Below, in pieces: positions 1,584-53,805 of a stretch of 64,000 bases of DNA (positions within the stretch are counted from its first letter, which is position 1; each line of letters opens with the position of its first letter). Position numbers and translations under genes: made by a program. The notes below the pieces were generated by a model. It made no database searches and was not told the DNA's origin. It saw only the letters and a list, made by a program, of their open reading frames with translations. The DNA is taken from the NCBI GenBank assembly GCA_963422465.1, contig OY730172.1, positions 496,001-560,000 on the forward strand, in the 5' to 3' direction. The stretch is from Lichina pygmaea. Lineage: Eukaryota; Ascomycota; Lichinomycetes; Lichinales; Lichinaceae.

Positions 1584-3205
1584 ATGCTCGTCGAGTCGTT
1601 GTTCCCCGCCTCGAAGCGGGACCGCGACGGGTCACGGTCGCCGGCGACGTCCAGCTGGCCGAAACGGCAGATCACACCGACCCTCGAGTCCATCTCCCGT
1701 CGTGCCTGTACCCACCCGATACACACGGTCGTCTTCGTTGCGTTGCTGGCCAGCACTACGTACGTTGGATTGCTGGAAGGGAAGCTCTTTGGACCGGAGA
1801 GCGATGGTGGCCACATCTCGTCTCGGTCAGACTGGTCCGCGCTCCTGCGAGGCAGCAAAGATCTCTGCGTTGGGGAACATACTGCGTGGAAATGGCAGGT
1901 CGATGACCAGGGGGAGTGTTTGGCGCACAAGCCGGTTGGTTCCCCGAGCGTTGCAGCGCATTCGGCGGCCTTGACAGCTCATGGAAGAACGTCGGCATGC
2001 TGACTGTGGACGTAGTCACGTCACCTCACTCTCGTGACCCTGTTGTTTCCCGACTCGCTGTCCCCGACCACACCACATGCCGCTCCGGCGCCTCACTCGG
2101 TCCCTCTTCAGAAAAATTCTTCGGTGAAGCCGCTGCCGACGACGTCCCACCCGCTGTCCCCCATCTCGCAGGACTCGGCCTTGGCCTTCTCCGTGCCCTA
2201 TGGCAACGCCCCGGCCTTTCTCTCGACGATACAGGAGTTGTCGGATGCGCCGCCGCAAGACGTGTACGACGATGGCATGCCTGGCTGGTCTCGACCCAAG
2301 TCTGCAAAGCCGCGCTGGGTGATGAAGGCCGCCCTCGAGGCCGGTAGCACGGAACGGCGCAGTTTTCGGGCGTGGATGGAAGATGCGTGGTCGGAGTTCC
2401 TCGATCTGCTCAAGGTGCGTCGCTCGGGCAATCGTTGCGGCAATCGCTGCTCCAAGAAGATTGGCCATCCTGACGATTCTCGTCCTCGACCAGAATGCGG
2501 AATCCTTGGATATCTTCATCATGTTCCTCGGCTACTTGTCTATGCACCTGACCTTTGTCTCGCTGTTCCTGTCCATGAGGCGTCTGGGTTCCAATTTCTG
2601 GCTGGCCTCGATGGTCGTTTGCTCTTCCGTCTTTGCCTTCTTCTTTGGCCTTACGGTGACCACGAAGATGGGCGTGCCGCTCAACCTCGTTCTGCTCTCG
2701 GAAGGGCTGCCCTTTCTCGTCGTCACCATCGGCTTCGAGAAACCCATCGTTCTGACCCAAGCGATGCTCTCGGCCTCGCGGCAGAGGCGACACCGGCCCG
2801 CCTTGGACGGGACCGTCTCTCGCGACGCTGCCGACGGCAACCACTACAAGTCACCGATGATGATCCAGGACGCCGTCCCGGCAGCCGTCAGGGACAAGGG
2901 CTACGACATCGTCCGGGATTACGCCGTCGAGATTCTGATCCTCGTCGCCGGCGTCTGTTCCGGCGTCCAAGGCGGCCTTCGACAGTTCTGCTTCCTGGCC
3001 GCCTGGATCCTGTTCTTCGACTGTCTGCTGCTGTTCACCTTCTACACCGCCATCCTGAGCGTCAAGCTGGAGATCAATCGGATCAGGAGGCACATGACCC
3101 TGCGGTCCGCTCTCGAGGAGGACGGGGTCAGCAAGCGCGTTGCCGAGACCGTCGCCCGACGAGACGAGTCGCCCAACCTCAAGCGGGCCGATCGACAGGG
3201 CGCCA

Positions 3206-3246
<41 letters not shown>

Positions 3247-5560
3247 TCGAGCGGCCGGCATCTGGGCATCTTCCGTGGGAAGCTCGGAGACAGCAGCGTG
3301 CCGAAGTTCAAGCTCCTCATGGTCTCAGGCTTCGCCCTCATCAACGTCGTCAATCTCTGCACGATCCCCTTCCGAAGTGGGAACCGCCATGCCGCCGCCG
3401 CCGCGCCGACCGTCTCGGGGCTGTCGAGCGTCGTCGCCTCGCCGCCCATGGACCCCTTCAAGGTGGCGCGCAACGGCCTCGAATCCATCCACGCGTCGGC
3501 GTCCGAGGACCGGGCCACGACCTTGGTCACGATCCTCGCACCGATCAAGTATCTGTCGGAGGACGGAAGCGGTCGTCGCCGTCGGGCTGCGTCCGGCCTT
3601 GATGAGCGCTACCTTCGGTCGGACTCGCCGTCGTCGGACGAGATGGGCTCATCTCTGGAAAGCGTCGGCGGCAGGGTCGTGTCGAGCCTGTTGAAGAGCC
3701 TGGAAGACCCAATCCTCAGCAAGTGGATCATCCTGATCCTGGCGATGAGCCTCGTGCTCAACGGCTACCTCTTCAACGCCGCCCGGTCGGGCATCGAAGA
3801 CCGCCACGCGTCGGATGAGCACGAAGGCCGCCATCGTTCGAAGGAGGTACCACCGGACGACCGACCGGTCCCGAGAGCACCAGCCGTCGTCCAGGATCGG
3901 TCTCGGTCTGCCGAGAACGGTGCCGTTCCCTCGCCTCGCATCGCCATCGACGGCGAGGATGACCCTCTGGAGATGGCGGACCGTCGGGTCGAACGGCGTG
4001 GGCCGACGACCGCACGAACGCAGGCGGAATGCGAGCAGATGGTCAAGGGGAACCGAGCCGCAGAGCTCACCGATCCCGAACTGGTGAACCTGGCGCTCCG
4101 GGGCAAGATCCCCGGCCACGCGCTCGAGAGGAGCCTCGGGGACCCGACGAGGGCCGTCAAGATCAGAAGGGCGGTCGTGTCGCGAACGCCCTCGACGTCG
4201 ACGAACACGGCCCTGCTCGAGGCTTCCTTGCTCCCGTACAAGGGCTACGACTACGCGCAGGTGCTGGGTGCGTGCTGCGAGAACGTCATCGGCTACATGC
4301 CTCTGCCCGTGGGCGTCGCGGGTCCGATGATCATCGACGGACACAGCTACTACCTCCCGATGGCCACCACCGAGGGCGTCCTGGTCGCGAGCACGAGCCG
4401 AGGCTGCAAGGCCATCAACGCCGGAGGTGGCGCGCTCACCGTCCTCACCGGCGACGGCATGACCCGTGGCCCGTGCATCGGCTTCGAGACGCTCGAACGA
4501 GCCGGGGCCGCCAAGCTGTGGCTCGATTCCGACGCCGGACAGAAGACGATGAAGAGAGCCTTCGACTCCACCAGCGGCTTCGCTCGGCTGCAGAGCATGA
4601 AGACGGCCCTGGCCGGGACGTACCTCTACGTCCGGTTCAAGACGACGACGGGCGACGCCATGGGCATGAACATGATCTCCAAGGGCGTCGAGCATGCGCT
4701 CGGCGTCATGGCGACGGAGAGCGGCTTCGACGACATGATCATCGTGTCGGTCTCGGGGAACTACTGCACCGACAAGAAGCCGGCCGCGATCAACTGGATC
4801 GACGGGCGCGGCAAGAGCGTCGTGGCCGAGGCCATCGTACCGGCCGAGGTGGTGCGCAACGTGCTCAAGACCGACGTCGACTCCCTGATCGAGCTCAACA
4901 TCAGCAAGAACCTCATCGGAAGCGCGATGGCGGGCAGCATCGGCGGCTTCAACGCGCACGCGGCCAACATCGTCACGGCCCTCTTCATCGCGACGGGGCA
5001 AGACCCGGCGCAGAACATCGAGAGCAGCAACTGCCTGACGACGATGAGAAAGTACGACGACGATTGGCCGCTCCCCCTCCTCTTTCACCTATCACGTAGC
5101 AGGCTCTCTCGCTGACCGGGCACTTCGTAGGCTCAACGGCGACCTCCAGATCAACGTGTCGATGCCGTCCATCGAGGTGGGCACCATCGGTGGCGGGACC
5201 CTGCTCGAGCCGCAGGGTGCAGCGCTCGACATGCTCGGCGTTCGGGGCCCGCACACCACCAGTCCCGGCGACAATGCGCGGAGGCTCGCTCGCGTCGTCG
5301 CGGCGGCCGTGCTGGCGGGAGAGTTGAGCCTCTGCAGCGCCCTCGCCGCCGGTCATCTGGTCAAGAGCCACATGGCACACAACCGGAGCAAGCCGGGGAC
5401 TCGCGCAGGAACGCCGGTGTCGTCGTCGTCGCGGGGCGCGCCCACGTCGTTTTCGGGATCCTTCTCGGCCGCGCAAGGTGGAGCGGCGACGCCGGTCTCG
5501 TTCGCGATGACATCGATCAAGGACAAGGCCAGGCCGGAAGTACGAAAGACCTCGGTATGA
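1584..5560 (+). CDS. HMG1: 3-hydroxy-3-methylglutaryl-CoA reductase
   Basis: This is the rate-limiting enzyme of the mevalonate/sterol pathway (HMG-CoA + 2 NADPH to mevalonate), an ER membrane protein. Predicted exons are 1584-1934, 2016-2414, 2494-5051 and 5131-5560, giving about 1245 residues. The first intron's donor (GTTGGT at 1935) is the least certain site; the others have good borders and CTGAC branch sites. The N-terminus carries the fungal [20 protein letters not shown] membrane segment. Exon 3 opens with the sterol-sensing domain (about residues 251-440). A glycine-rich linker follows, and the catalytic domain runs from about 760. Catalytic features seen: Glu846 in [16 protein letters not shown], the DAMGMNM block near 971, Lys in DKKPAAINW near 1011, Asp1087 in GQDPAQN and His1178 in [16 protein letters not shown] chose the ATG at 1584, the only in-frame ATG ahead of the first membrane segment. 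Sterol feedback through the sterol-sensing domain is known for the family and not shown here. Confidence 0.95.
3208..3246 (+). repeat. (GGC)13 microsatellite encoding a 13-glycine run
   Basis: Thirteen perfect GGC codons lie in the linker between the sterol-sensing and catalytic domains of HMG-CoA reductase. The repeat is in frame, so changes in copy number would alter linker length without breaking the protein. Confidence 0.95.
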
Positions 5561-8259
5561 TGAGTCATCCATCGCGTACGGTACCGTCGCCGCCCGTCGA
5601 CGGCACCCCTCGTCCGGACAGCCTCCTTCAACCCGGTGATCACCATATACCATCTTCGCATCCTGTACGCTCTGCATCCTGGCCATCTACCTCGTGATCC
5701 GCTCATCCTCCCCTCGTCTCGGCGTCTACCGAAGCATTGTGTCTTTGACTGCCATCGCCACCGCCTCGTCGTCCTCGTCATCATGAGCCATATCCCCTCG
5801 GCTGCTTCATGCTGCTGTCCTTCTGGGTCCTGACAGCCGATAGACCAGCGTTTGTCATCACTGCATCTACCGCGTTTGTAGAAACCCTCGATATCGTCAC
5901 AGGCTCTCCGCCGCCGCCTCTTTCCTACTGCTGCTCACTTGGAAGAGCAAAACACAACCTAGACTGTTCCTCTTCTCCTTCTTCTTCTTCCTCCTTCTAC
6001 TCCTCCTCCTTCTCCTTTGTTAGCGGCTCCGACGTCTTTTAGAAATTATTTCTTCCATAGCGGTATCCAGCGTCGGCATCTGGTCCTCTTCTCTTCTTTC
6101 CCCCGTTTGTCCGCCATCCCGTTCCGTCTTCCTGAACATGGGCACATCAAAACTCTCAGTCGAGACCTACAGTACATCAATCTCAAACCCACCCCGAATG
6201 GAACCTCAATCTCCATCCTCCCTCTCTTCTCCTGCAATCCTTTCACAAATCTTCCTCCACATACAAATCTTTCTGGCACTGACCCTTATTTCTCTCTCTA
6301 CAAATCACGTTGCTCATGGACATCTCTGAGTAGGTGATACGTACCGTACTGTCACATCAGCACTCCGCCAACTAATTAATCGTACGGCAAAAACGGTGCT
6401 ACCCGTGCCTCTCAGGGACAGTGATTCTTGTACGTAGTGCTCAGATATATCGCCGACGGTACAGCACATGTGTGGAGGGTGTACTTCCGCACTTCTGTAC
6501 GAAGGCACAAGGTATAGAGGGTGAGCACGACAGTATGGAGGGTGTTACTTTTCACTGTATGGAGCGAGTACTCCTTGCAGCACGGAGGGTGTACTTCTTA
6601 CAGTACCTTGAAGGGGGTGTCCCTAGATGTCTACATCAGCTCTTACAAGTACTCGTAGAAGGGGCTCATGGGTGAGACGTCCGGTGCAGCCTCGATGCAG
6701 CCGGTGGGAATGGAAGGTCGACGGCCCCGCCGAAAGTGATTCGAGGACTGTCGGCTCCGGGAGCCCTTGTGGTGTGTTGCCGTACGAGGTTTGTGGTAAT
6801 TACTCGTAAGCTCTGGGCTGCGGTACCGTACTGGGAGGCTGTCATGGGCTGTCAAGAACTGTTCAAGGGAGTTGACGGGGTCTGCTGAGTGAGTGGGAAA
6901 ACATTGCAACGGGCTCATCGACACAAAAGTTCTTTTGCTTCCACGGGTGTCCTAGCTAGAACGTGGCGGGATTCTTCTCTGGGCGAGGGAGCTCACGAGG
7001 GCACGATTGGTCGCCTTTTACATTACCGTATCGTACGGGAGAAGGCTGTCGCGATGTTGTCCAGGCTTGTGGCCCCTGTCACAGTTGAGTGTGATCATGG
7101 CTTGCAGGTGCATACTTCTGTTGGCGGCTCTCCTTTCTCTGGTATCTCTGGTTACGTAACGCTCGCGACGTCCTCAACCCTTGTCGCTTGCCGCGTCAAA
7201 GGCCAGGAGATCGGCAACCAACCAGAGGCACCCGGTCGCCTCGGCGTCAAACGCATCAAACGCGAAGGACGGCTGTTTGAGGTCGCCTACCAGTACGGAA
7301 CGAGGTGTGCGTAGGGCATCTCTTGACTTTTGACCCTCGCGTTTGAAACAAAGCCATGACGGTCGAGTTTCAGATGGCCCGGACTCTCTGAACGCCACTC
7401 GGTGTGGAATCGTCCTTCTCTTGACTCCCCGACCCCGACCCAGGCGCGACGACGCGCCTCGGAGCCCCCCACGTTTGATATCGTACAGAGCTGCTCGTCC
7501 ACGCTTGGCCGGGCGATCTTGCCTTGTTCGCTCCCAGCGAATGGTTGCAAGGACAGCAGCCGCGACTTGCGACCGGAGCCAGCATCGCTCTTCGCCCACA
7601 TCACGCACACCACCGTCAGCAGGACAAACCAGGGGCTTTCTTGGCGTGCTGTCAAGGCGGAGCAAGGAGACTGGACGTCTCCCCCCTCTTCCCTCTTCTC
7701 CATGTTTCCGTTTGCCAGGAAGGTCCGGTCCAGATGTGTCGCGAAACGGCCGTCGAGTCGGCATCTGATAGGCTTCCTCGTTTCCGGACGCTCCTCTCCT
7801 TTCGTGCTCCAACGGAGACGATGTTTGTTCCTTCGAGTCAGACGTTTCTTTCTCCGGTCGTCTTTCTTGGGCCCACCCCTCCCCCCTCGCTCCACGTTTG
7901 CTCTTGGCCTTACGATTTCTCTTTGTCGTCTGCGTCTGCTTTGTTTCCCTTTGTTCAAGGTTTGTCTGCGCCTTGAACGATAACGCTTCTCGCTTTGAAG
8001 GTAGACCCGCCATTGATATAATACAATGGGAACCCCCCCACAATGTATCTTCACTGTTCGGTTTCTCCCGGTCAGTCGACCGCTCTCTCCTCTGCGCCGT
8101 CGGCAGGTAACTACTGCTCACGTGGCCCTCCTGACACGCCTGGTCGTGTTTCAACAGCGCCCTGTGAATCATCGAGTCGCATTAACTCCATTCTGTTCAC
8201 CTCCTGCCGGATCGACTGCCTTTATTCACCGGCGCTGGCGTCTTGAATTCTCTTCCAGC
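5561..8259. other. Intergenic region between HMG-CoA reductase and LPMO-like gene
   Basis: About 2.7 kb without a supportable gene. From 5561 to about 6300 it is strongly pyrimidine-rich (CTT/TCC runs near 5970-6020), probably the reductase 3' UTR and terminator region. Around 6465-6610 a short word like GGAGGGTGTACTT recurs several times. From about 7300 to 8250 long pyrimidine tracts dominate. Several open frames here (including a 332-codon one on the minus strand, 7174-8172) are low-complexity and match no family I recognise. Confidence 0.5.
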
Positions 8260-10740: not shown

Positions 10741-13587
10741 GACACGGAAGCGGGAGAATTTTTCTGCACGAGACCGAAGGAAAGGCAGCGCAGTGCTGAC
10801 GGATACGTGAGAAGGATGCGTGAGACGGCAGCTCCGGTCATGATAGAAAGCCCCGTTGGTGAACCACACGACCACCCCCAGACACCTCTTGATCTTGTCG
10901 CCTGCTGTCACACAACGTACTCGGACAGATCGACATTGTCCTTTTCGCGACCCCACTTGATCCTGCGTTTTGTAGCTAGAGTTGATCAGTGTTCCCCTCT
11001 GACACCGACAGAGGAGATGGTTGGTACGTTTTTCAGCACACCCTTGGCTCTGCTGCAGACTTTTCTGCTGGCCTAGACATCCACTGGATGTCTTTGCCTG
11101 GTGCTATTCCGTCGCCAGCCTTTGCACAACGTGTTCGGGCAGAAGAGCGTTGTGCCTTGACTTGATCCTGTGGTTGTAGCTAGAGCCCATCGGTGTCTTT
11201 CTGACACTGAAGGAACATGGTCAGTCCATCTCCCAGTACACCCCTCGCTCCGTTGCAGATTTTGCTGCCGGCTTCGCCGTCCGCGGGATATCTTCGCCTC
11301 GTGTCCCTACCGACACTTTCATAAGCACAGAGTCTCTGCGCAATCGAGTGTCAGACTCCTCGAGTCTAGTATCTCGATGCATAGAGATAAAGCTTTTCCG
11401 TCAGCCCGAAATTCAGAGCATTTTTTGCAGAGGACTCGCAGGGCTTGTGAGTCGTTGAAGTAAGTCGTTTGAACCAGTCGGGCCTGTTCCGCCATCCACT
11501 CTCAGGCTCCCGAGTCATACCCGCACCGTATGAGATCTGTTGTTTGACACCTGCGACTTTGGGCGGACGTCGTAGTAGTACAGGTGACCGTTCTGTCGAT
11601 CTCCTGTTGTAGCACGGCCGTCGAAAGGCCAATGGCCGAGCGTACAGTATCATTAAAGAGTAGATCCTGATAGTCATCAATTGGTCGTTCAGTCGATCTC
11701 CTGGTGCAGCACAGCTGCCGAAAGGCCAACGGCAGAGAAAAAAGTACTCTTGAAGAGTAGATCCTGACAGTCGTCTGGTGCGACGAGGGCGCCCGCGGAT
11801 AGAGTAGCAGCAGTGGTCGAACTGAAAGACCTCCCCAGACCAGTGTCTTGATGGTCGATCAATATTGTACGGTACCGTCGTACCGTACAAGCATAGACTT
11901 GCGACCACCCGCCTTCATCGGCTCTCAGGCTCGCATGTTGAGCCTGTAAGGACGAGACTAAGGCTTCCGTCCACCACCAAGCAAAACACCCAGGTTTCCG
12001 CCACTTAGGGTCGCGGATCACACCGGGTCCATGTGATGCCCCGGCATAAGCCGACCATATCCGCCGTGCTCGTCACGCTGCCAGCAACCCTTGGACGGCT
12101 ATCGCCGGTTTCTGGGAGCCGCACAAACTTCTGGGTATAAATATTGGCCCAATATTTCCGGGTGTGAATTCTTCTTCTTCCTCTTCACACTTCTCATCGT
12201 CACTTCTCCGCCCAACTGTCGCCACCTCCGTCCTCACCGCTGCCACCACCACCGCTACCGCGGCAGGTCGACGGCTGTTTTTAGGTCCTCTCCTCTGCCA
12301 CCCGTCATGGCTTTTTCTACCGTTGAAGTCGAGATATCTCGGCACAACAAACTTCGCCGGCAGCTTTCGTCGAGGAGATATTGGCTTTCTGCTTCTTCCT
12401 TGCCACCCACATTCTCTCCCCTTGTTGTCATCTTCTGTATGACAACATCTTCATGGTGACTTGTGTCACTATGAGCCTTTTCCATCTTCAATCTCCGCCT
12501 TCTGACGATTTTTCCCAATCTGCATCATCTTTGATGTTATTGGACGCTTGAGCGTGGACTTTTGAAAACAGTCGTTCACAAGGTTAATAAGGTGAGGTGG
12601 ACATCAAATCGAACTCTTCTTGTCAAGTGTCGTTGAGAAGAAGAGAAAGGAAGATATTAATATCCATGCCAGTTCCTTGCTTTTCCTTACGACCAGCGAT
12701 GTTGGTTCGGAATCAGAGAAACTCCCATAAGTCGTCGAGAAATTCTTGGAAAAGAGTTCTCCCGACTCAAAACAACACTCGTGTAGTGTCAACAAGAAAT
12801 CTCCAACAGTTAACATCAACTGTTTGGGTCAAAGATATGATTACGGTACACTTCAAGTGTATCATGTTGTTTCAAGAAAAAAACAGTTTTTCTTGAGATG
12901 CCGAGGACTGGTCGAACTCTCCGACCACAGCAAAGAACTATCATCGATCAGAGATTAACATCGTCATACCAGCTGGAGGTACTCTTCTCAAGAATAGAGA
13001 GCTACCTTTGGGATTGTTACTCTTCAGTCGATAAAGATATTCTGGGATATAACAGTCCTGGTTTAAATCCCCGAAAACGTAAGCTATATCCTAATACCAC
13101 ATGAATACTTGCAGTATAGACGATAGTGCTTCGACAGAAATCCAGCTGGTACGTACTTTTTCGGCTTTTTATGGAGGTAAACCACTGTCCTCGGTGCTTG
13201 GCTTTTTTCTGACAAGGTTATCGATATAGCACAGGTATATCAACAACTATCATGTGATGAACATAGTCGCGAAGACTGTTTGCAACCACTTGTCGAAACT
13301 GCTGTTGCAATAACAGCCACCACGATAAAACATGGTTACAGACGATGTGCCTGCCACTGTTCGGGGTGCTGGAGCAAACAACACAAGATCCCGAAGATCA
13401 CGGCTCATGGATGGGGTCCAGAATAATATAGGTCTGGCTTCTCTATACACCAAGCCAAGATCAGAAAATACGTCAGAACGGACTCTGTGTTGTCGGGTTG
13501 CTGGGGTAGTATTTGATCACTACCCCTGGGTTTGTTTGGGAGATCCGAGAAAACAAACCTTTTTTCAAGATCTTCTTAAGATCTTGA

Positions 13588-14240
13588 TACCAGGCCTCTT
13601 CCATGGCCATGGTACTTCAGGTCTTGGTCCGGCAAGACCAATTGATTGGCGGTCAGCAAACTCGGCCTCGACGTGTTCTGAGTACTTGGCTGTGTTGGCG
13701 AATTCTCATGTGAAATACCAGGCCACTTCCACGGTCATGGTATTCCTGGTCTTGATCCGCCAGGACCAGTTGTCGACCGTCAGCTGACTCAGCCTCGAAA
13801 TACTTCGAGTGCTTGACTGTCTTGACAGATCCTCCTGCGAAATACCAGGCCACTCCACGGCCATGGTATTCCTGGTCTGGGCAGAACCACAATCGACTGA
13901 CTCGGCCTCGAAACACTCCAAGTGCTTAACTGTGTCGACGGATTTTCGTGCGGAATACCAGGCTACTTCCACAGCCAAGGTAATCCTGGTCTCGGTCCGC
14001 CACGACCTGCGATCGACTGTTTGTTCGAATTGGCGACTAACTCGACCTCGAAGTCTTTCAAGCACTTTGACCATGTCGACGTATCCTTTCGCGGACTACC
14101 AAGCCTCTCCCACGGCCGAGGTGTTCTTGGCCTTGGTCCGCCACGATCAGTGATCGACTGTTCGTTAGCATCGTCAACTGACTTGGTCTCGAAGTACTCC
14201 GAAAACTTTGACCGTATCAGCACATTCTCTTGCGACATAC
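13588..14240. repeat. Minisatellite array, five to six units of 113-141 bp
   Basis: Units begin with ATACCAGGC-like sequence at 13588, 13715, 13842, 13955, 14095 and (partial) 14236, so periods are 127, 127, 113, 140 and 141 bp. Each unit carries a CC(A)GG...TTCCACGG(T/C)CATGGTATTCCTGG core that can fold back on itself, a TTGGTCCGCCA box and a CTCGGCCTCGAA box. Copies are clearly diverged, with many C/T and G/A differences. Confidence 0.8.
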
Positions 14241-14764
14241 CTGGCGTTGTCGCTAGCCACTCTATTGTCAGACACAGTGGTGCTGGATGTTTGATGGCCA
14301 CTGCAACAATAACTACAGCTTGTCAGAAACTGGCAGAGTGGTGTTTCTGAATTCCGCTATCAACATATGATAGTTCACACAACTGGGGTGGAGAGAATCA
14401 TGATGTGAGAACTGGAAATATGGGACATGATGTACGAGTTATCGTCGGATAGGCATATTGAAAGAAAAACACAGCCTCTGTCAACAAGACACGAGGAAAA
14501 CTTACTAGCCTTAGCGACAAGTCTTTGGTATGTCAACTTCCCTCAAAACATCGATGTTCACATTACTGACGAAGGCATCTTTGACCTGGCTAGCTGCTTG
14601 AAAGTCGGCCAGTCGAGCGAGGGTGAAAGCAAGCGACCTGGACTGAGTCCTGGTGTTTGCCTCGGGTCGTCTTGGTTTCCCACTTTCAGGGAGTTCTGAG
14701 AAAGTTGGGATGTGTTTGGGAAGTTTCGCATCACGTCATATTTAAGAGCAGGATCGGGGAAAAA

Positions 14765-14850
14765 AGCTTGGCGACTCAGCGGCGACTCAGCGGCGACTCA
14801 GCGGTGACAACTCAGAGACGACTTGGGACAACCCAGCGACGACTCAGCGA
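14765..14850. repeat. Short 11-bp tandem repeats
   Basis: Three adjacent copies of GGCGACTCAGC start near 14768, followed by decayed versions (ACAACTCAGAG, ACCCAGCGACGACTCAGCG). This is a small local expansion in non-coding sequence. Confidence 0.75.
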
Positions 14851-15544
14851 ACAAGATCATGCCAGATGACTTCTTTCCAGTCTTGGTGCATGCTACTCCG
14901 CACTAAATACCACCCAGTGGAAACATCTTCTTCAAGAACAAGAAGTGCTCTTCTTGGAAATACTGTGCAAAACAGTAGGTCAGCCAGCTCGACTGTTCAG
15001 GGCTGCGAGAAGATTGTCACAAAAACAAAAATCCACTGTTTGATGAATTATTAAGAGCAACAAAGACTAGCTTGTCTTTGTTGGCGAGGCAGTCGCCAAT
15101 TAGCATGATGTCTTACACTGCTACAAAGACACCATGGGGTGTCCTTGTTTGAAAGCCGGAGAAGATAGGAGTTACTGGAAACTTCTACTCCAGAGACAAC
15201 GCCGCTCCGAACATACTCGGGAGCTTGAGTCTCCCGTGAACATCGTCGGGGATCTGGGTATATCTGGCTACGAGCAGCAAGCCCCCGAAGCAAGAAGTTC
15301 TTTGACAAAGTTTCTACAACTCTGCCACACCACGGACAGGTGGACGCAATACACAAGCGGTTAGTCGCGCAACACAAGTGGCTGGTCGCGCAACACGTCC
15401 AGAAAAAAACTGCAAAGCTATTGCAACCTCTACACTTTACACTACACAGTTTTCCCAATCGGAGTTACCTCGCGGGTTATATTACACGCAGATGTGTATA
15501 CAAGTTAGGGAGACTGGCCAGACCACAGAATCTGTGGCCAACTT

Positions 15545-15692
15545 GACAGCTTCCAACACTACGCTGTCTCTGGCTTGACCACATGATAAGTATATCATGT
15601 GAGGTTGTCGGCTAGACTATCATATTTTTGGCTCGACAACTTCCAGCACTACACAGACTCTAGCTTGACCACATGATCAACTACATCATGTG
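15545..15692. repeat. Duplicated segment carrying CACATGAT hairpins
   Basis: Two copies of about 90 bp contain GACA(G/A)CTTCCA(A/G)CACTAC, then CTTGACCACATGAT, a short loop and ATCATGTGAG. Each copy therefore holds an inverted repeat (about 15580-15601 and 15670-15692) able to form a hairpin. Confidence 0.7.
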
Positions 15693-16687
15693 AGACTAGA
15701 AGTTGTATCACTAGTCACTTCAAGATAAGATGGAGAAGTCTAGCAACCGTGTTCTCTATTATCTTTGGAACAAGAAGCAGACTACAAGTCTGCAAGCAAC
15801 AATGCCAGCAACGGAGGCTGTCGCCCATCTGCAGCTTGTCCATATGTCAGAGCAGCAGAGGACTTCTGTTCTCGACGCAAGAAAAAGAAAGACAACGTCA
15901 AAACAACAACACCAGAGTGTGAGGTGTGCGAGCAGTGACACAGAATCCCACTCATCGGCGGTCCGTGCGCTTGTCTGAGCAGCAGCGCACTGTTTTACAC
16001 TTCTTTTTTCTAAGAAGATTTTCTTATCTCCAAGATAAGAAACATCAAGCCAGGGAAACCACGCTGCACACGAGAGAAGATTTGGAAGACAAATCTTGGA
16101 GTACGGCCATTTCAGTGCCAGAAGTTAGGACCACCATCATGTATGAGATGGTCTGTTGGGGGGGTCGCAGTAGCGGAGGACTGTTTTACAGTGCCTTTTA
16201 TTAAGACATGTTTATTGTCTCCGAGATACGAAATACCAAACCAGGGCAACCGCGGAGATAAAATCCGGAGGACACGACATGGAGAAGAATTCTTGAAAGA
16301 CAAGTTTTGGAGGACAGAAACCAAATGGTGATCTGTCGCCACAGAAGACAGGGTCCAGCACGTCCCGGTACTATTTGGTGGTGTGTGGGAAGCTGGCGCA
16401 GCAAGTGACTGCGTTTGGAAGCTCGCTCTACCCAGAAGCAGAGCTAATGATCGAGACAAGAAAGCAATTTGCGGAGAAGCCAGCCAAATTTGGCGGAGAA
16501 GGAAATTGGAGGACAAGACTCCATAGGCTCCTCGCGCGAGCCAAAGACAATGTGCTTTCTGGTGGCCTGAGCTGTACGTCTCAGATCAACATCCTCAAGC
16601 AAGAGACGCAGATGTTGCACTGCGGCCAGCCTGGACTGGCATCAATGGCGGCGGCGATGGCGGCGATGATCACGCCGCCAAGCCCAA

Positions 16688-42753: not shown

Positions 42754-45663
42754 ACTTTCAAAGCGGCCCCGCTTCTTGCCTTTCGCAAAGTGCCCGCGAC
42801 AGCTGGGTTCTCAGGGACCGAAACGGAGCTGGGGAGCGAGCTCAACACCAGATTTTGCTACCGGCAGCAGTTGCGCGGCTGATGAGGCCTGACTCGGGCG
42901 GGCTCATTCGGGCGCGACGGGGCTCTGTTATGCTCTCAGGCTCTTTCAAGCTTGTCTGTGTGCTACGATTCGTGTCGTGATAGCTTCACGGGTGGGGGAC
43001 ACGAGTCACGGAGCCTGATGTCCCCCCTCTCTCTCCAAGCAATCACTCTCCACCCTCACACCCCTTTCAACCCTCCCCTCTCCAATTTCCCCTCCTCGCA
43101 CATTGCCATCCCAATGTCCTGCTCTCCAACAGGTCATTCTTCCCTGATGTCCTATCGCTCCACCTTCCGTCAATCCTTCTCGGCTGTTCTTTCTCTTTTC
43201 CTTTCATCTCTGCTTTGCTTTACTCTATCTCGCTTTGGTCTTCTCTGCTTCTCTTCTCTACTATCCTGTTCTCTTCTCTTCTCTTCTCTTTTCGTCCATC
43301 CGAGATTAGCGACTACTGGTCGGTGGTTGTTACCATTTGGTGTTGGTGTTGGAGTTGGAACTGGATGTGGGGTGCTGGCGTGCGGGGTGTTTGGTGACGG
43401 GTGACGGTTCTACGTGCGGGTGCTGGTGTTGTCAGAGAAAAGCAACCTCCGCGCCAGAAAGGAAACTTGAGTGGACCCGCAACGGATGGAGTGTATGCGA
43501 CTTGGCACCGCCCAAAAATGTGCGGGCGGGGTTTGCGCTATACCTACACAGTTGCTCACTCCATCCATCTGTCCATCTGTCCATTTACATACCACCCCGC
43601 TATCTCTCTTCCTCTCCCTTTTCTTTCTTTTCTTCCTACTCTTCTCTTGTCACGTCGTGGTATGTCACGTCATGTCACGTTGTGGCACATGACGTCTTCC
43701 TGGCCGTCTAGCTACCTAGCCACTCGCTATTCATCTGTGTGCTCATCTGGTTTGCCGTCTTGTTGATCTACCCACCCAAAGATCTACCTAGCCAGTGAGA
43801 GACCGACGTATCCAAAGATTCAACTAGCCCAGGGATCCAAAGAAATCTGTCTGGCCACTTGAATCAGTGTTATGGTCGGAGTTCCACCAGTTACCCTCAC
43901 CTCGCACGCACTGAATGCTATGCATAACCAACACCGGCATGCTTTTCTAGAACGAAAACAAGAAAGTGGATGAGAGAGTAGAGCAGAGAGCGGACAAGAG
44001 AATGGAGGAGAGAGTCGAGGCGGGACGGGAAGATGTGGTTGCTATAGCTTGCTTCTTTCCGTCTCTACCTTGTCTCTCTTCACTTCGGTTACTTGGTTGC
44101 TTTCTCTGTTGTTATTCTCCTTGCCGTTTGAATTCTTGGGGTTTCTTTATGTAGCGAACTGGGGGCATCATACATAATTACGGTAAGTACAGCAATCACC
44201 GCAATCACCACAATCACACGCCTTTCACAGCAATTACAAGCCATCACCGCAACCATACTAGCAGTCACACCTCACCGCTGCAAGGATGGTAGCACCCGGG
44301 CAGTTCCTGGTGCCACGAGTGGAGGCACCACCATCAACATCACCACCAGTATCCACAGCCACCCCACAGCCCCCGCATAGCAGCAATAGCGACGGCAGCA
44401 GGGACAACAACAGTGGCAACCCCCACCCCCCCACCCCCGCTGCGGGCCCCGGGCGAGAAACGCTCACGCAGCAGCGATGGTGACAGCGAGAACAATACCC
44501 CCCGGCAGCAGCAGCAACATCACCCTCCCGAAAGGCCGAAAGCGACGGGGGCTTGTCCAGCGTACAATCATGATGTCACAGCTACATGGCATCGCAGCAT
44601 CAGCATCCTCCACAGCGGCCCCAGCAACAGCAACACCAGTACTGGCCCCAGCAACACCAGCATCAGCCCCACCCCTCCCGACACCGTCACTCCCTGGACA
44701 GGGGATCTCGAGGTTCTGCTGCTACAGAGCTCTTTCTGTGTTCTATCGTCACCCCAGCAGTTTACCGCCTTCTGAGGCGTGTGGGACAATGAGGTTTTTC
44801 GCCCTTCCGGCCCTGGAGCCCAGAGATCTTTTGATCTCGCAGCTCTAAATTAGGGCCCGGAGGTTTTCCTTATTATACAGCTACACAGCGTTCCCGGCAT
44901 AGTTCTAGCAAGTACGTACGTTACGTAGCTAGTTCTGAAACGGAGTAGGAATACCATACCATACCATACTAGCAGTCACAGTGATCGCGGCAGTCACACG
45001 GGCGATCACACACACACACACACACGGTCTGCTCCCAATCATCAGATCCTTGATCTTCCTTGGTGCCTACACACACTTCTCTTGTCTTCTTCTTTTCTTT
45101 GCTCCCCCCCCCCCCCCGCCTCGCTTTGTGCCAAGCTCCTCCTCGCTAGGCTCTGTCATCTGTACTGTAAGGAGTTACTGATGAGGGAGGGAGAGGAGAG
45201 GAGAGGAGAGGAGAGGAGAGGAGAGGAGAGGAGAGGAGAGGAGAGGGGAAGAGAGGAGAAGGGAAAGGAGTGGGTAACCGAGCGATTTTGAGAAAGCCGT
45301 GCCAAGTAGGAAGAAAAAGAACAAAAAAAAAAGAAACCAGTGCAGTAAGTTGAACTTGTTTCTACTGAATGGTATGCACTCGGCGTGGTCTCATCGTGGT
45401 CTTGGCTTGGCATTTGGAATGCCTTACGCCCGCGGGCAACTTTTCTTTGGGCAGATGCTCTCTGCTGTCTGCTCTCTCCGCGCTTGCTTGTATGGTTACT
45501 TGGGCGAATGCTCGCTGGCTTGGACTATCACTTTTACAAGGTGTGATCCTTTTCCTCCGTCCACTCTTGCGACAGATGAGATACAAGTGCGAGAAGGAGG
45601 ACCGGGGAGATTCCGACAAAGAAGAAGTGTGAGAAGAACTGTCGAGAGACACGCTCCGTCGGC
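42754..45663. other. Long low-complexity intergenic region between NBP2 and ENT3
   Basis: About 2.9 kb between two converging genes, dominated by pyrimidine tracts (43020-43310, 43560-43650), CAN-repeat-like sequence (44180-44700) and microsatellites. Sequence near 44845-44955 weakly resembles the tail after the LINE relic at 37.5 kb. A TACGTACGTTACGTA cluster lies at about 44911-44926. Open frames here have low-complexity translations and are not supported as genes. Confidence 0.5.
45005..45262. repeat. Microsatellite cluster: (CA)n, poly-C, (GGAGA)n
   Basis: A CA run lies at about 45008-45025, a run of about 14 C at 45104-45117 and about eleven GGAGA units at 45190-45246, followed by decayed copies. 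Confidence 0.9.
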
Positions 45664-49443: not shown

Positions 49444-51500
49444 AGTCGGCCGACCGCACATGGGTCAAAGGGGACGTCGGCGATGGGCGGCACTACTCGT
49501 TAATCGGTGGGTGTGATGCTTCGTTGTGGTCGAGCGAACGGCAGGCGGGTCAAGGTCGATCTTATCGAAGAAATCGATGTTGCTTCACACAGTAATCTGG
49601 TACTCTCGCACGGAAGTACGTGCGTGAGGCGATGTGTCGGTCGCACTTTGGCTTGTCAAGATCATTGCTCAGGATGGGCCTGTTGAGGGACCTAGGTGGT
49701 CCGACTACGTATCGACACGGTCACAGCAGGAGCTCGTCATCCAACCGTAAATCAAGCGTTGACCTACGAGAAAACTTCTGAGACCATCAAGTAGCGTCAG
49801 GTCGACCTTAGGAGCAGTACGTAGGGTATGCCCCTTCTTGGCCTATCTCCAGCTTGGCAAGCACTCTGTCTCGTAAAAGTATCATGATCAAGACTTTTTC
49901 ACCGGCCAGCAAATCCCGAAGGAAGCCATTCGTAAGCCGTGGCAGCAGGACTGATACGTACTCGCTCACGCACGCACGGCTAGCCACGATGAGGGAAAGG
50001 TAAGCACTGTCCGACTCCCTACGAGCATGTGGCTCTGTCGAATTTGAGGTAACTGGAGAGCAACGTCGAGCTGCCGTACTAGTAAAGAGTTCCTATATCA
50101 TACATACCCCAACTAGTGCAACTCAATTGGCAGAGAGATACGATCAAGACGGACCGTCGACGTGCAAAGCCAATACTTGAATGTCGACCGCAGGTACGTA
50201 ATGCTGCGGGGATTGTATCGGAGGATACAGAACGCTTTACAGGAAGCAAGTCATGTTGGTGACTACCATACAAGGATACTACGGTGTCTAGGATGCTGGT
50301 CGTGCCAGTGGAGGTGTCCAGGCATGTTTCATGAGACTTTTTGGAGATACGGTATGGTTTGATCTAGCTGTGACGGCTTTGTCTGATTCAGTCGATGCAA
50401 CCACATCCGTCCATCTGTCCATGTCACTTGCATTGCTTACTGTAGACGAATCCCTCTTCTCTCGTTTTGATGGTGACAGCTCCCAGCCCTTGCAGTCTCT
50501 CTTCACACGATGCATCTGAAACTCCGCCTGAGCGGGATACCACTGTTGCCCACTTCAGCCTCCGCACCGCCGTGAAGTTTGGTGGGGTCAACATTCAGCT
50601 TCTGCAAAGGATCGGACAACGGTGAGATCAGCAACAGCAGTCTTGGATACCCTCCAAACCTTTGACAGACTTGACACCACCTCACCCCTTCAAAGACCTC
50701 TTACAGCATGATCCGACTCTTCGAAGGTGCACCATGATACCGTAAACGTTCAGCTGACAAATATAGTACGTTCATGATCTCATCATGTGTTTCTATGGGA
50801 AAAGCCGCCTGTCATCACAACTACAGCTAGACAGTGGGTCTGTCCATCTCCCTCGGTGCAAGAGCGCAGAAAGCGTGAATTCACAGCATATATTCAAAGA
50901 CAGGCGCACTATTTCAGGGCAGATACCTTCATGGAGGTATCGTAACATAGCCAATGGCTGCAGATCCCAAGGTCCGGCCCTGCCATCGGACGTGCTGGTG
51001 TTCATTGCCTCTATACCAAGTTATCCAGTCTGTCGACCCAGCAGCGACCTAGCAAGAGTGAGAGCAGCTGCCGCACATCATCACACATCGTCATCCATCA
51101 TCATACATCATCGCACAACATCCCCATCAAGACCGCAACTCCTCAGCATTGTGGGACATTGGGACCCACAAAGCATGAGACTTTGGAATCGTAACAGTCA
51201 TAGGACCCCCGGCGCCTCGAAATCTCTGAACACTAGGTTCTGATCCTCAGCATCTCAGAGCCTCAGGAGATGGAGATGGCACCATGACCGCGGAACGACT
51301 GACATTCTGATGGCTTGCACGAGCATCTGGGCCGGACTTGTACTCTGACCCGACTAACTCTGACCCGGAAATTCCGTACTTCTGACCTAACAGAGCACTT
51401 TGCATTCCAGTCCTTTGACTCGAGCCGTTTGACTCCAGCTCTCCGAGCCAAATTTTGACAACAGACACCAATCAGCTCTTCTCTACTCTACTCTTCTCTA
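49444..51500. other. Intergenic region left of the LINE insertion
   Basis: About 2 kb of mixed composition with no supportable gene. CATCAT-type runs occur near 51080-51120, and short duplicated CTCTACT words occur just before the LINE insertion (51480-51504). Confidence 0.5.
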
Positions 51501-51513
51501 CTCTACCATGTCC
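51501..51513. repeat. LINE target-site duplication, left copy
   Basis: CTCTACCATGTCC, identical to 51971-51983. Confidence 0.88.
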
Positions 51514-51970
51514 CAGAACTGGGAGAATTGGTCTAGCAAGTTTTCGTTTCAGAGCTGGAGTCCCTGACTTTCCTACCCCTTTATGCATTTGTGGTCAAGC
51601 AGAAGAGACAGTAAAGCACATTACCTCTTCATGCTCTCTCTACTCAAGTCAAAGACAGCATGCTCTTTTCAACCCTCAAGATTTCACTACTATTATTTCA
51701 AACCCAGAGCTTCTACAGAAGTCTCTGTATTGGTTTATGTCTTTGAAAAGACTAAACCAATTTAATCTGGCTTTCAAACTTCACTATTCACACTCCAATA
51801 TCTAGAAGCTTTTTCTACCAGACACTACAAGATTTCCTTTTGCTACACCTTCTAGCCACCTCCCTGTCTTCAGTTTTTATCCCTTTAAAGGTTTTCTGAA
51901 GAAGTTCACTATTAGCTGGAAGATCTGCATGGCTGTAAAGCTACTATCAGTGTAAGAACCAAAAAAAAAA
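51514..51970 (+). mobile_element. 5'-truncated LINE insertion with poly(A) and target-site duplication
   Basis: The insert starts directly within the end of a LINE ORF2. The frame RTGRIGLASFRFRAGVPDF runs on to the zinc-knuckle segment PLCICGQAEETVKHITSSC and ends with a stop at 51803-51805, without interruption. A 155-bp 3' non-coding tail follows and ends in ten A residues at 51961-51970. The 13-bp word CTCTACCATGTCC stands both immediately before the insert (51501-51513) and immediately after the poly(A) (51971-51983). These are the hallmarks of target-primed reverse transcription. The RT and endonuclease domains are missing by truncation, so it cannot move on its own. Confidence 0.9.
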
Positions 51971-51983
51971 CTCTACCATGTCC
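51971..51983. repeat. LINE target-site duplication, right copy
   Basis: CTCTACCATGTCC directly follows the ten-A tail and matches 51501-51513 perfectly. Confidence 0.88.
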
Positions 51984-52210: not shown

Positions 52211-52269
<59 letters not shown>

Positions 52270-52375: not shown

Positions 52376-52408
52376 GGAAGAAGAAGAAGAAGAAGAAGAA
52401 GAAGAAGA
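52376..52408. repeat. (AAG)n microsatellite, about 11 units
   Basis: An uninterrupted purine AAG run of about 33 bp, 100 bp downstream of the TTG repeat. Confidence 0.95.
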
Positions 52409-52514
52409 GTGGAGGAAAGAGGTCATGACAGATGAGAGCACCGGAAAAAGAGAGTTGGTTTAGTTGACATGATATTTCTACCTACCTTTGGGGCAGAGAA
52501 CAAGAGAACATGGT

Positions 52515-53805
52515 TCATATCTCGAGCCACTGCTTAAAGTACACGCACGTCGAAGCGCTGACGGGTCCTCCTTCCTCGCAGAGATGAAACACGGGGCATT
52601 TCCCGCAGGGCGCCTCGGTGAAGGCGTTGCGTCTGGTCAGGCCGGCGCCGTCTTCGATCGAGGAAGAAGAAGAGGCACCGCCGCCAGCGGCCCGGGCAGA
52701 AAAGGGAGGAGGCGACGCCGGAGGTTGGCGCACGGCGCGAAAAACCTGGACGTCGTCGTCCGTCCTCCGCGCCAGCCGCTCGACCCGCTTGTCGTAGTGC
52801 AGCAGGTCCATCAGCTGCCGCACGTGATCTTCTTCTAGCGGGACCTGGGTCACGCCCGTGTCGTTGATCCACGTCATGATCTCTTCGAGCGTCGGATAGT
52901 CGTGGTAGGAGGGTGGGTAGGGTAGAAGCGTGATCGCTTCTTTCTGTTTCATCGGAGTCGTCATCGGCTTGTTCGATGATGACGATGCCCTCTTGCCGCT
53001 GCCGATGTTTGACATCTTTGTTCGACGATCGTCGGTGGACTCGTCGTCGGCCAGCTTTCTCTTCCTACCGCTGTTGCTGGCGGCGCCCATCGTAGCAGTC
53101 GAATGCGAACCCGATGCTAACAGCGACTCACCGTGAACTGCGTGTGTGGCCTTGAAGAAGCTACGCTCGCGCACGTACCTCTCGAGCACCTCGCAGAGCT
53201 GAGCGACGAACTCGGTGTCTAGCTCCCCATCCGTAAACCACGGGCCACCAGTGACGTCCTCCGACGGTGTGAGAGCTGCGAGCATGTATATCTTCCGAGC
53301 CGGATACTTGACATTCTTGACCTCTTTGACGATGTTCTTGGTCTCCAGGCTCTTCAATGACCGAGTGACGACCGACTGATGCAGGTTCGTACGCTGGTTG
53401 ATCGTTCGCCTCCAGATGCCTTCTCGGCCGGCGGTCTCGATGCAGTTAAGAATGAGGGCCTCGTCGTTGTTGAGGGTTGCATAGCTGCAAAGGTCCAGTT
53501 AGTCGAGGTCACTCCAATGAGGAGAGCAAGAACAGATATAGTCCATACCGTGCCGCATCTTCCCGCTTGACCGCCTTGAATGCAGCTTCCCCGCCAATGG
53601 TAGAGACCTTGAAAAGACTTTCCTGTAACAAAGAGCTGGTACATGCCATGAGCAGCTCCGTGTCATCATCTGGGATCACTCCCAAGGCCAGGAGATCGGA
53701 CGTCTTGAAGAAGCGGTCCGGCTCTCTGATACATTCTTCGTAGAGCTCATCTCTCAAGCCATCGATGTCCGACTGGCCATCTGGCGTACCTCGAGATGGT
53801 GACAT
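52515..53805 (-). CDS. RPC34: RNA polymerase III subunit Rpc34 (RPC6/C34)
   Basis: A Pol III-specific subunit of the Rpc82-Rpc34-Rpc31 subcomplex that contacts TFIIIB and helps open tRNA and 5S promoters, nuclear. Minus-strand exons are 53805-53549 and 53481-52515, giving 407 residues; the splice restores AARYATLNNDEAL. The N-terminal winged-helix part includes GREGIWRRTINQRTNLHQS and VVTRSLKSLETKNIVKEVK, with YPARKIYMLAALTPSEDVTG and GGPWFTDGELDTEFV after it. A disordered, Lys/Arg/Ser-rich insert lies around residues 225-270 (GRKRKLADDESTDDRRTK). The C-terminus carries four cysteines, C378, C381, C387 and C398 (CGKCPVFHLC...C), matching the iron-sulfur ligand set known for this subunit. It is divergent from the STI1 gene, 463 bp apart. 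Confidence 0.93.

Follow-up and report, generated by a model that had tools for sequence, protein, structure and literature searches.

A truncated LINE insertion in Lichina pygmaea, its family, and a non-coding RNA fused to LINEs

The insertion and its surroundings

The 64-kb stretch of Lichina pygmaea DNA analyzed here, which we call the window, encodes proteins that include a Zn2Cys6 regulator, a Fungal_trans protein and a DUF7492 protein. A 457-bp LINE 3' end, truncated at its 5' side and bounded by exact 13-bp target-site duplications, has as its neighbors a cyclophilin-type isomerase gene (from 48297) and, on the minus strand, Rpc34 (52515-53498). The insertion is intergenic, outside any recognized coding sequence, and is located ~530 bp downstream of the 3' end of Rpc34. 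Two microsatellites, GTT (52211-52269, about 240 bp beyond the insertion) and GAA (about 52380-52410), lie between the insertion and Rpc34. The parts of the insertion are as follows.

51501-51513 (51500-51513 with an ambiguous A), plus strand: left target-site duplication CTCTACCATGTCC, an exact match to 51971-51983
51514-51970, plus strand: 5'-truncated LINE insertion of 457 bp, the last ~8% of a ~5.45-kb element, matching other, full-length genomic copies at their 3' end with 95.2% identity and no gaps
51515-51805, plus strand: C-terminal 96 codons of ORF2, open in translation (51515-51802), and the TAG stop (51803-51805)
51584-51634, plus strand: CCHC motif C-X-C-X8-H-X4-C at the ORF2 C-terminus, read from the translation
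51806-51960, plus strand: 3' UTR, from alignment to family copies
51961-51970, plus strand: A10 tail of exactly ten A, from the sequence
51971-51983, plus strand: right target-site duplication, an exact match to 51501-51513

The duplicated word has no third site in the window, and 0.01 occurrences are expected by chance. Either 13 or 14 bp may be assigned to the duplication, because the A at 51500 matches the last A of the tail; the 14-bp reading places the cut between T and A, like most other inspected copies of the LINE family. The 5' junction shows a 1-bp overlap (C) with the element. The stop codon is common to copies with the full 1083-aa ORF2, in which a zf-RVT domain is matched weakly (E=0.16, below the cut-off). 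In other copies of the LINE, the A-rich tails contain ATCAA or AATAA units. To its left, the insertion is flanked by a CTCTA/CTCTT run, and a genome search found both flanks to be single-copy, so there is no paralogous empty site with which to compare this locus.

These observations bear out the original prediction of a 5'-truncated LINE with a perfect 13-bp duplication, an uninterrupted ORF2 C-terminal frame, a 3' tail and ten terminal A residues. The decayed relics that it placed elsewhere in the window were not recovered: neither the full LINE nor fragments of other LINE families matched anything else in the 64 kb. The most G+C-poor 4 kb of the window (12001-16000) is single-copy. Two short segments, 44270-44328 and 44701-44763, are 82-83% similar to DNA flanking L115, one of the LINE chimeras described below, and hint at a further dispersed repeat.

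The LINE family and the origin of the window copy

Our genome searches covered 32.5 Mb in eight contigs of one assembly. A conserved word of 32 bases immediately preceding the tail was found at 701 genomic sites with at most two mismatches, compared to none for a reversed-pattern control. The search for longer copies, set as a check on the identification, recovered full-length relatives of ~5.45 kb with an endonuclease and a reverse transcriptase. A full-length copy (for example L032, about 2418-7870) consists of a ~500-bp leader followed by ORF1 (507 aa) and ORF2 (1083 aa). ORF1 has CCHC-like knuckles by eye and no Pfam match, and ORF2 matches RVT_1 (E=1.8e-34) and Exo_endo_phos_2 (E=5.8e-15), the latter pointing to an APE-type endonuclease. 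Pfam gave no RNase H match in ORF2, even for the part following the reverse transcriptase at E≤10, in a search that could miss a divergent domain. Other truncated copies have variable 5' truncation points and duplications of 11-14 bp, and two full-length copies have duplications of 12-13 bp.

The main lineage of the family is young and uniform. Among 46 distinct sampled copies, nearly all are at least 99% identical to one another, most differing from the majority by 0-2 bases in 460, and the whole 1083-codon ORF2 is open in at least 30 of 150 scored copies. The claim of an active LINE family is thus well supported by the 701 3' ends, the near-identical main lineage and the open reading frames, which together suggest activity now or in the very recent past in Lichina pygmaea. 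The window insertion itself is ordinary; its value is as evidence for a young, heavily expanded family in which many full-length copies are open.

The window copy falls outside this dominant young lineage, as its 95% identity (94.7-95.4% against the 46 sampled copies) and its separate branch show. In the tree, the window branch measures 0.035 and the main-lineage stem 0.012. The assembly yielded no further member of the window lineage, and two lineage-specific words occur in it only in the window copy. The best partial match, C7:3198002, was rejected as a decayed copy with 91.6% identity. Polarization with an older subfamily assigned the 20 differences between the window copy and the main lineage to the window branch (14), the main branch (5) or neither clearly (1). 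The window-branch changes run in both directions (C>T 5 and T>C 6 among 14), which rules out RIP-type mutation as the cause of the divergence.

Ten coding differences between the window copy and the main lineage are synonymous and three non-synonymous, with no stop, compared to the ~25% synonymous changes expected under decay in place (P from 4e-5 to 9e-4 across transition biases). The bias resembles that between active subfamilies (about 26 synonymous to 10 non-synonymous) and differs from that of the decayed copy L082 (7 synonymous to 12 non-synonymous, plus a stop), suggesting that the bulk of the 5% divergence built up on a functional source before insertion. A mixture estimate of in-place change in the window copy is best near 0, with an upper 95% limit of 2.4% per site. 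The original prediction took the intact duplication and frame as signs of a recent event. Both barely limit age: up to ~11% divergence per copy is compatible with an unchanged 13-bp duplication (95% level), and at 5% divergence 57% of 96-codon frames would still be open. The synonymous bias is a stronger test and does favor little decay since insertion, a reading that draws on only 10 polarized coding changes, 7 of them synonymous, on the window branch. Some in-place change is possible, given that this branch is longer than the main stem.

We consider it very probable (about 0.93) that target-primed reverse transcription with 5' truncation made the window copy from a minor source lineage of a family that is active or was so very recently. 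The LINE endonuclease would nick the target DNA, the LINE RNA would be reverse-transcribed from its A-rich 3' end for ~460 nt, and 13-14 bp would be duplicated when the staggered cut was repaired. The structure, the duplication, the kinship, the copy number and the selection pattern of the differences are directly shown; we infer the mechanism from the anatomy of the insertion, and infer the recency of the insertion as well. The evidence favors a source lineage that is sister to the dominant one, with little decay of its offspring since insertion; no other copy of that lineage was found in the assembly. The window copy was dead on arrival because only the tail of ORF2 was copied.

For a very recent insertion, the lack of a source copy in the genome would be unexpected unless that source has been lost, is polymorphic or lies in a gap. 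One refinement of the explanation above, rather than an alternative to a LINE insertion, is that the source lineage segregates in the population or entered by a cross with a relative, leaving offspring here without the parent. A singleton lineage under selection with no parent in the assembly fits this proposal, but the parent may sit in an assembly gap or the copy may be older than the loss of its source, and we regard the proposal as possible though somewhat doubtful. It is distinctly unlikely that the window copy is instead an old relic of the main lineage, decayed in place with its duplication and frame intact by luck. The 5% divergence from the main lineage agrees with such a history, and the duplication and frame taken alone are compatible with it, but 10 of 13 coding differences are synonymous, including 7 of 10 on the window branch, as expected of a selected source lineage, and in the truly decayed L082 the bias is reversed. 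The CTCTA-rich run in the left flank might invite a non-LINE reading, in which a coding exon or a duplicated piece of a gene happens to sit next to a chance repeat; this is refuted by the hundreds of copies with the same 3' end at unrelated sites, with variable truncation points and duplications.

A 1,117-nt non-coding RNA fused to LINEs

Two main-lineage LINE copies, L013 and L017, carry the same non-LINE sequence at their 5' side, joined at different positions of the LINE. In both, the two chimeras checked at both ends, one 13-bp duplication (ATTGTTTGAACTG around L013 and AATACAATAGTAG around L017) encloses the whole chimera. The single duplication implies that the RNA-like and LINE parts were inserted together, as by a template jump, and rules out LINEs inserted into an older repeat. 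The last 23 bases of the 1.1-kb sequence occur at 120 genomic sites with at most two mismatches, compared to none for the reversed pattern. From these ~120 sites genome-wide, none of which is in the window, we sampled L013, L017, L083-L091 and L093-L117.

The ends of the captured sequence are fixed. The RNA-like part ends at one base, ...GGCATAGTACGACTGTGG (its 3'-terminal sequence is also written ...GACTGTGG), in the 31 sampled junctions, and the bases that follow are a sense LINE in 29, a second copy of the RNA in one and unresolved in one. Of the 29 LINE assignments, that of L105 relies on LINE-like protein motifs read by eye, and those of L099 and L111 on weak matches combined with such reading. 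The LINE parts are 5'-truncated, come from several families and have nearly all different start points. At the other end, GGCCTGCAACGAC or a close variant of it forms the start in 22 of the 23 copies whose flanks are unrelated. The unit bounded by these ends is 1,117 nt long and is without a long sense reading frame, and its copies are about 98% alike.

Several further features of the chimeras were observed. On the LINE side, most junctions open with C or T, and CC or CCC is frequent, which suggests short pairing or preferred jump sites. At L085:862-1261, a second copy of the 1.1-kb sequence, 5'-truncated and 85% identical, comes after the first, as if by an RNA-to-RNA jump. A search for the head-to-tail copies that a circular RNA could produce gave no exact match. 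Many variants among the 23 RNA 5' ends resemble CpG to TpG/CpA changes, of the kind expected from cytosine methylation. A tRNA gene (L113:264-358, minus strand) lies ~190 bp upstream of one chimera.

The start of the RNA coincides with a predicted ribozyme, located in three copies.

L114:543-659; L113:543-659; L116:689-805 (minus strand): predicted HDV-like ribozyme, from a match to the Rfam model

The HDV ribozyme model (RF00094) matches L114 from the first base of the RNA with 38.7 bits (E=0.00017 in a 221-base search) and the two further copies with 37.0 and 36.1 bits, all three below the gathering cut-off of 50. The match coincides with the 5' boundary common to the 22 of 23 copies. A helix descriptor for the double-pseudoknot core, with P1 at the cleavage site, matches at L114:545, the first base of the RNA; this descriptor was written after the Rfam match had been seen and has a background of 6 matches in a 64-kb control scan. 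By eye, P1 can be drawn as GGCCUGC/GCAGGCU with a G-U first pair and P2 as GACUCGA/UCGAGUC, and the joining stretch GCUAA holds a candidate catalytic C. The 5' region of the LINE itself gave no HDV-like ribozyme with either the Rfam model or the descriptor.

The 1,117-nt RNA thus starts exactly at a predicted cleavage site and seems to cut itself at its 5' end. A self-cleaving 5' end, if true, would explain the constant start base of the captured RNA. We lean, with some reservation, toward a model in which the ribozyme-trimmed RNA is a habitual landing template for template-jumping reverse transcriptases of several LINE families, always entered at its exact 3' end, and would thereby have given rise to the ~120 chimeras; the WEIRD RNA of Magnaporthe grisea may be of the same kind. 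The chimeras matter more than the window insertion: MINE-type fusions are known from Magnaporthe, with an RNA (WEIRD) that is unexplained.

Comparison with known systems

The LINE family resembles the fungal two-ORF, APE-type LINEs of the Tad1 group, among them LINE-Tad-RtPc5 of Paracoccidioides, a 5905-bp element with an ORF2 of 1312 aa and an RNase H (PMC4427930). Both have two ORFs, an endonuclease and reverse transcriptase in ORF2, an A-rich tail and many truncated copies. The Lichina element is shorter (~5.45 kb), as is its ORF2 (1083 aa), and RNase H is undetected by Pfam in it, compared to present in RtPc5.

The closest parallel to the chimeras is provided by the MINEs of M. grisea, in which a full-length 1.1-kb non-coding RNA, WEIRD, is fused to truncated MGL LINEs and has no solo copies (PMC2104539). 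The C or T at the LINE side of the Lichina junctions may be compared with GCC*A/U, reported for M. grisea (PMC2104539). As in WEIRD-MGL MINEs, a non-coding RNA of ~1.1 kb is fused at full length and in sense to 5'-truncated LINEs between short flanking duplications, so the Lichina chimeras match the MINE type in architecture. The systems differ in scale, with ~120 intact RNA 3' ends in Lichina compared to 31 MINEs in M. grisea (PMC2104539), and several LINE families are used in Lichina. They also differ in that an HDV-like ribozyme is predicted at the 5' end of the Lichina RNA, a feature not mentioned for WEIRD in the literature examined.

HDV-like ribozymes have been described at the 5' ends of R2 (PMC3774820) and of trypanosomatid L1Tc/ingi elements (PMC4035085). 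As in those elements, the predicted cleavage in Lichina falls exactly at the 5' boundary of the element. Unlike in R2 and L1Tc/ingi, the prediction is made on a non-coding RNA captured by LINEs rather than on an autonomous LINE, and a ribozyme match at the 5' end of a MINE-type RNA appears, as far as the literature shows, to be new.
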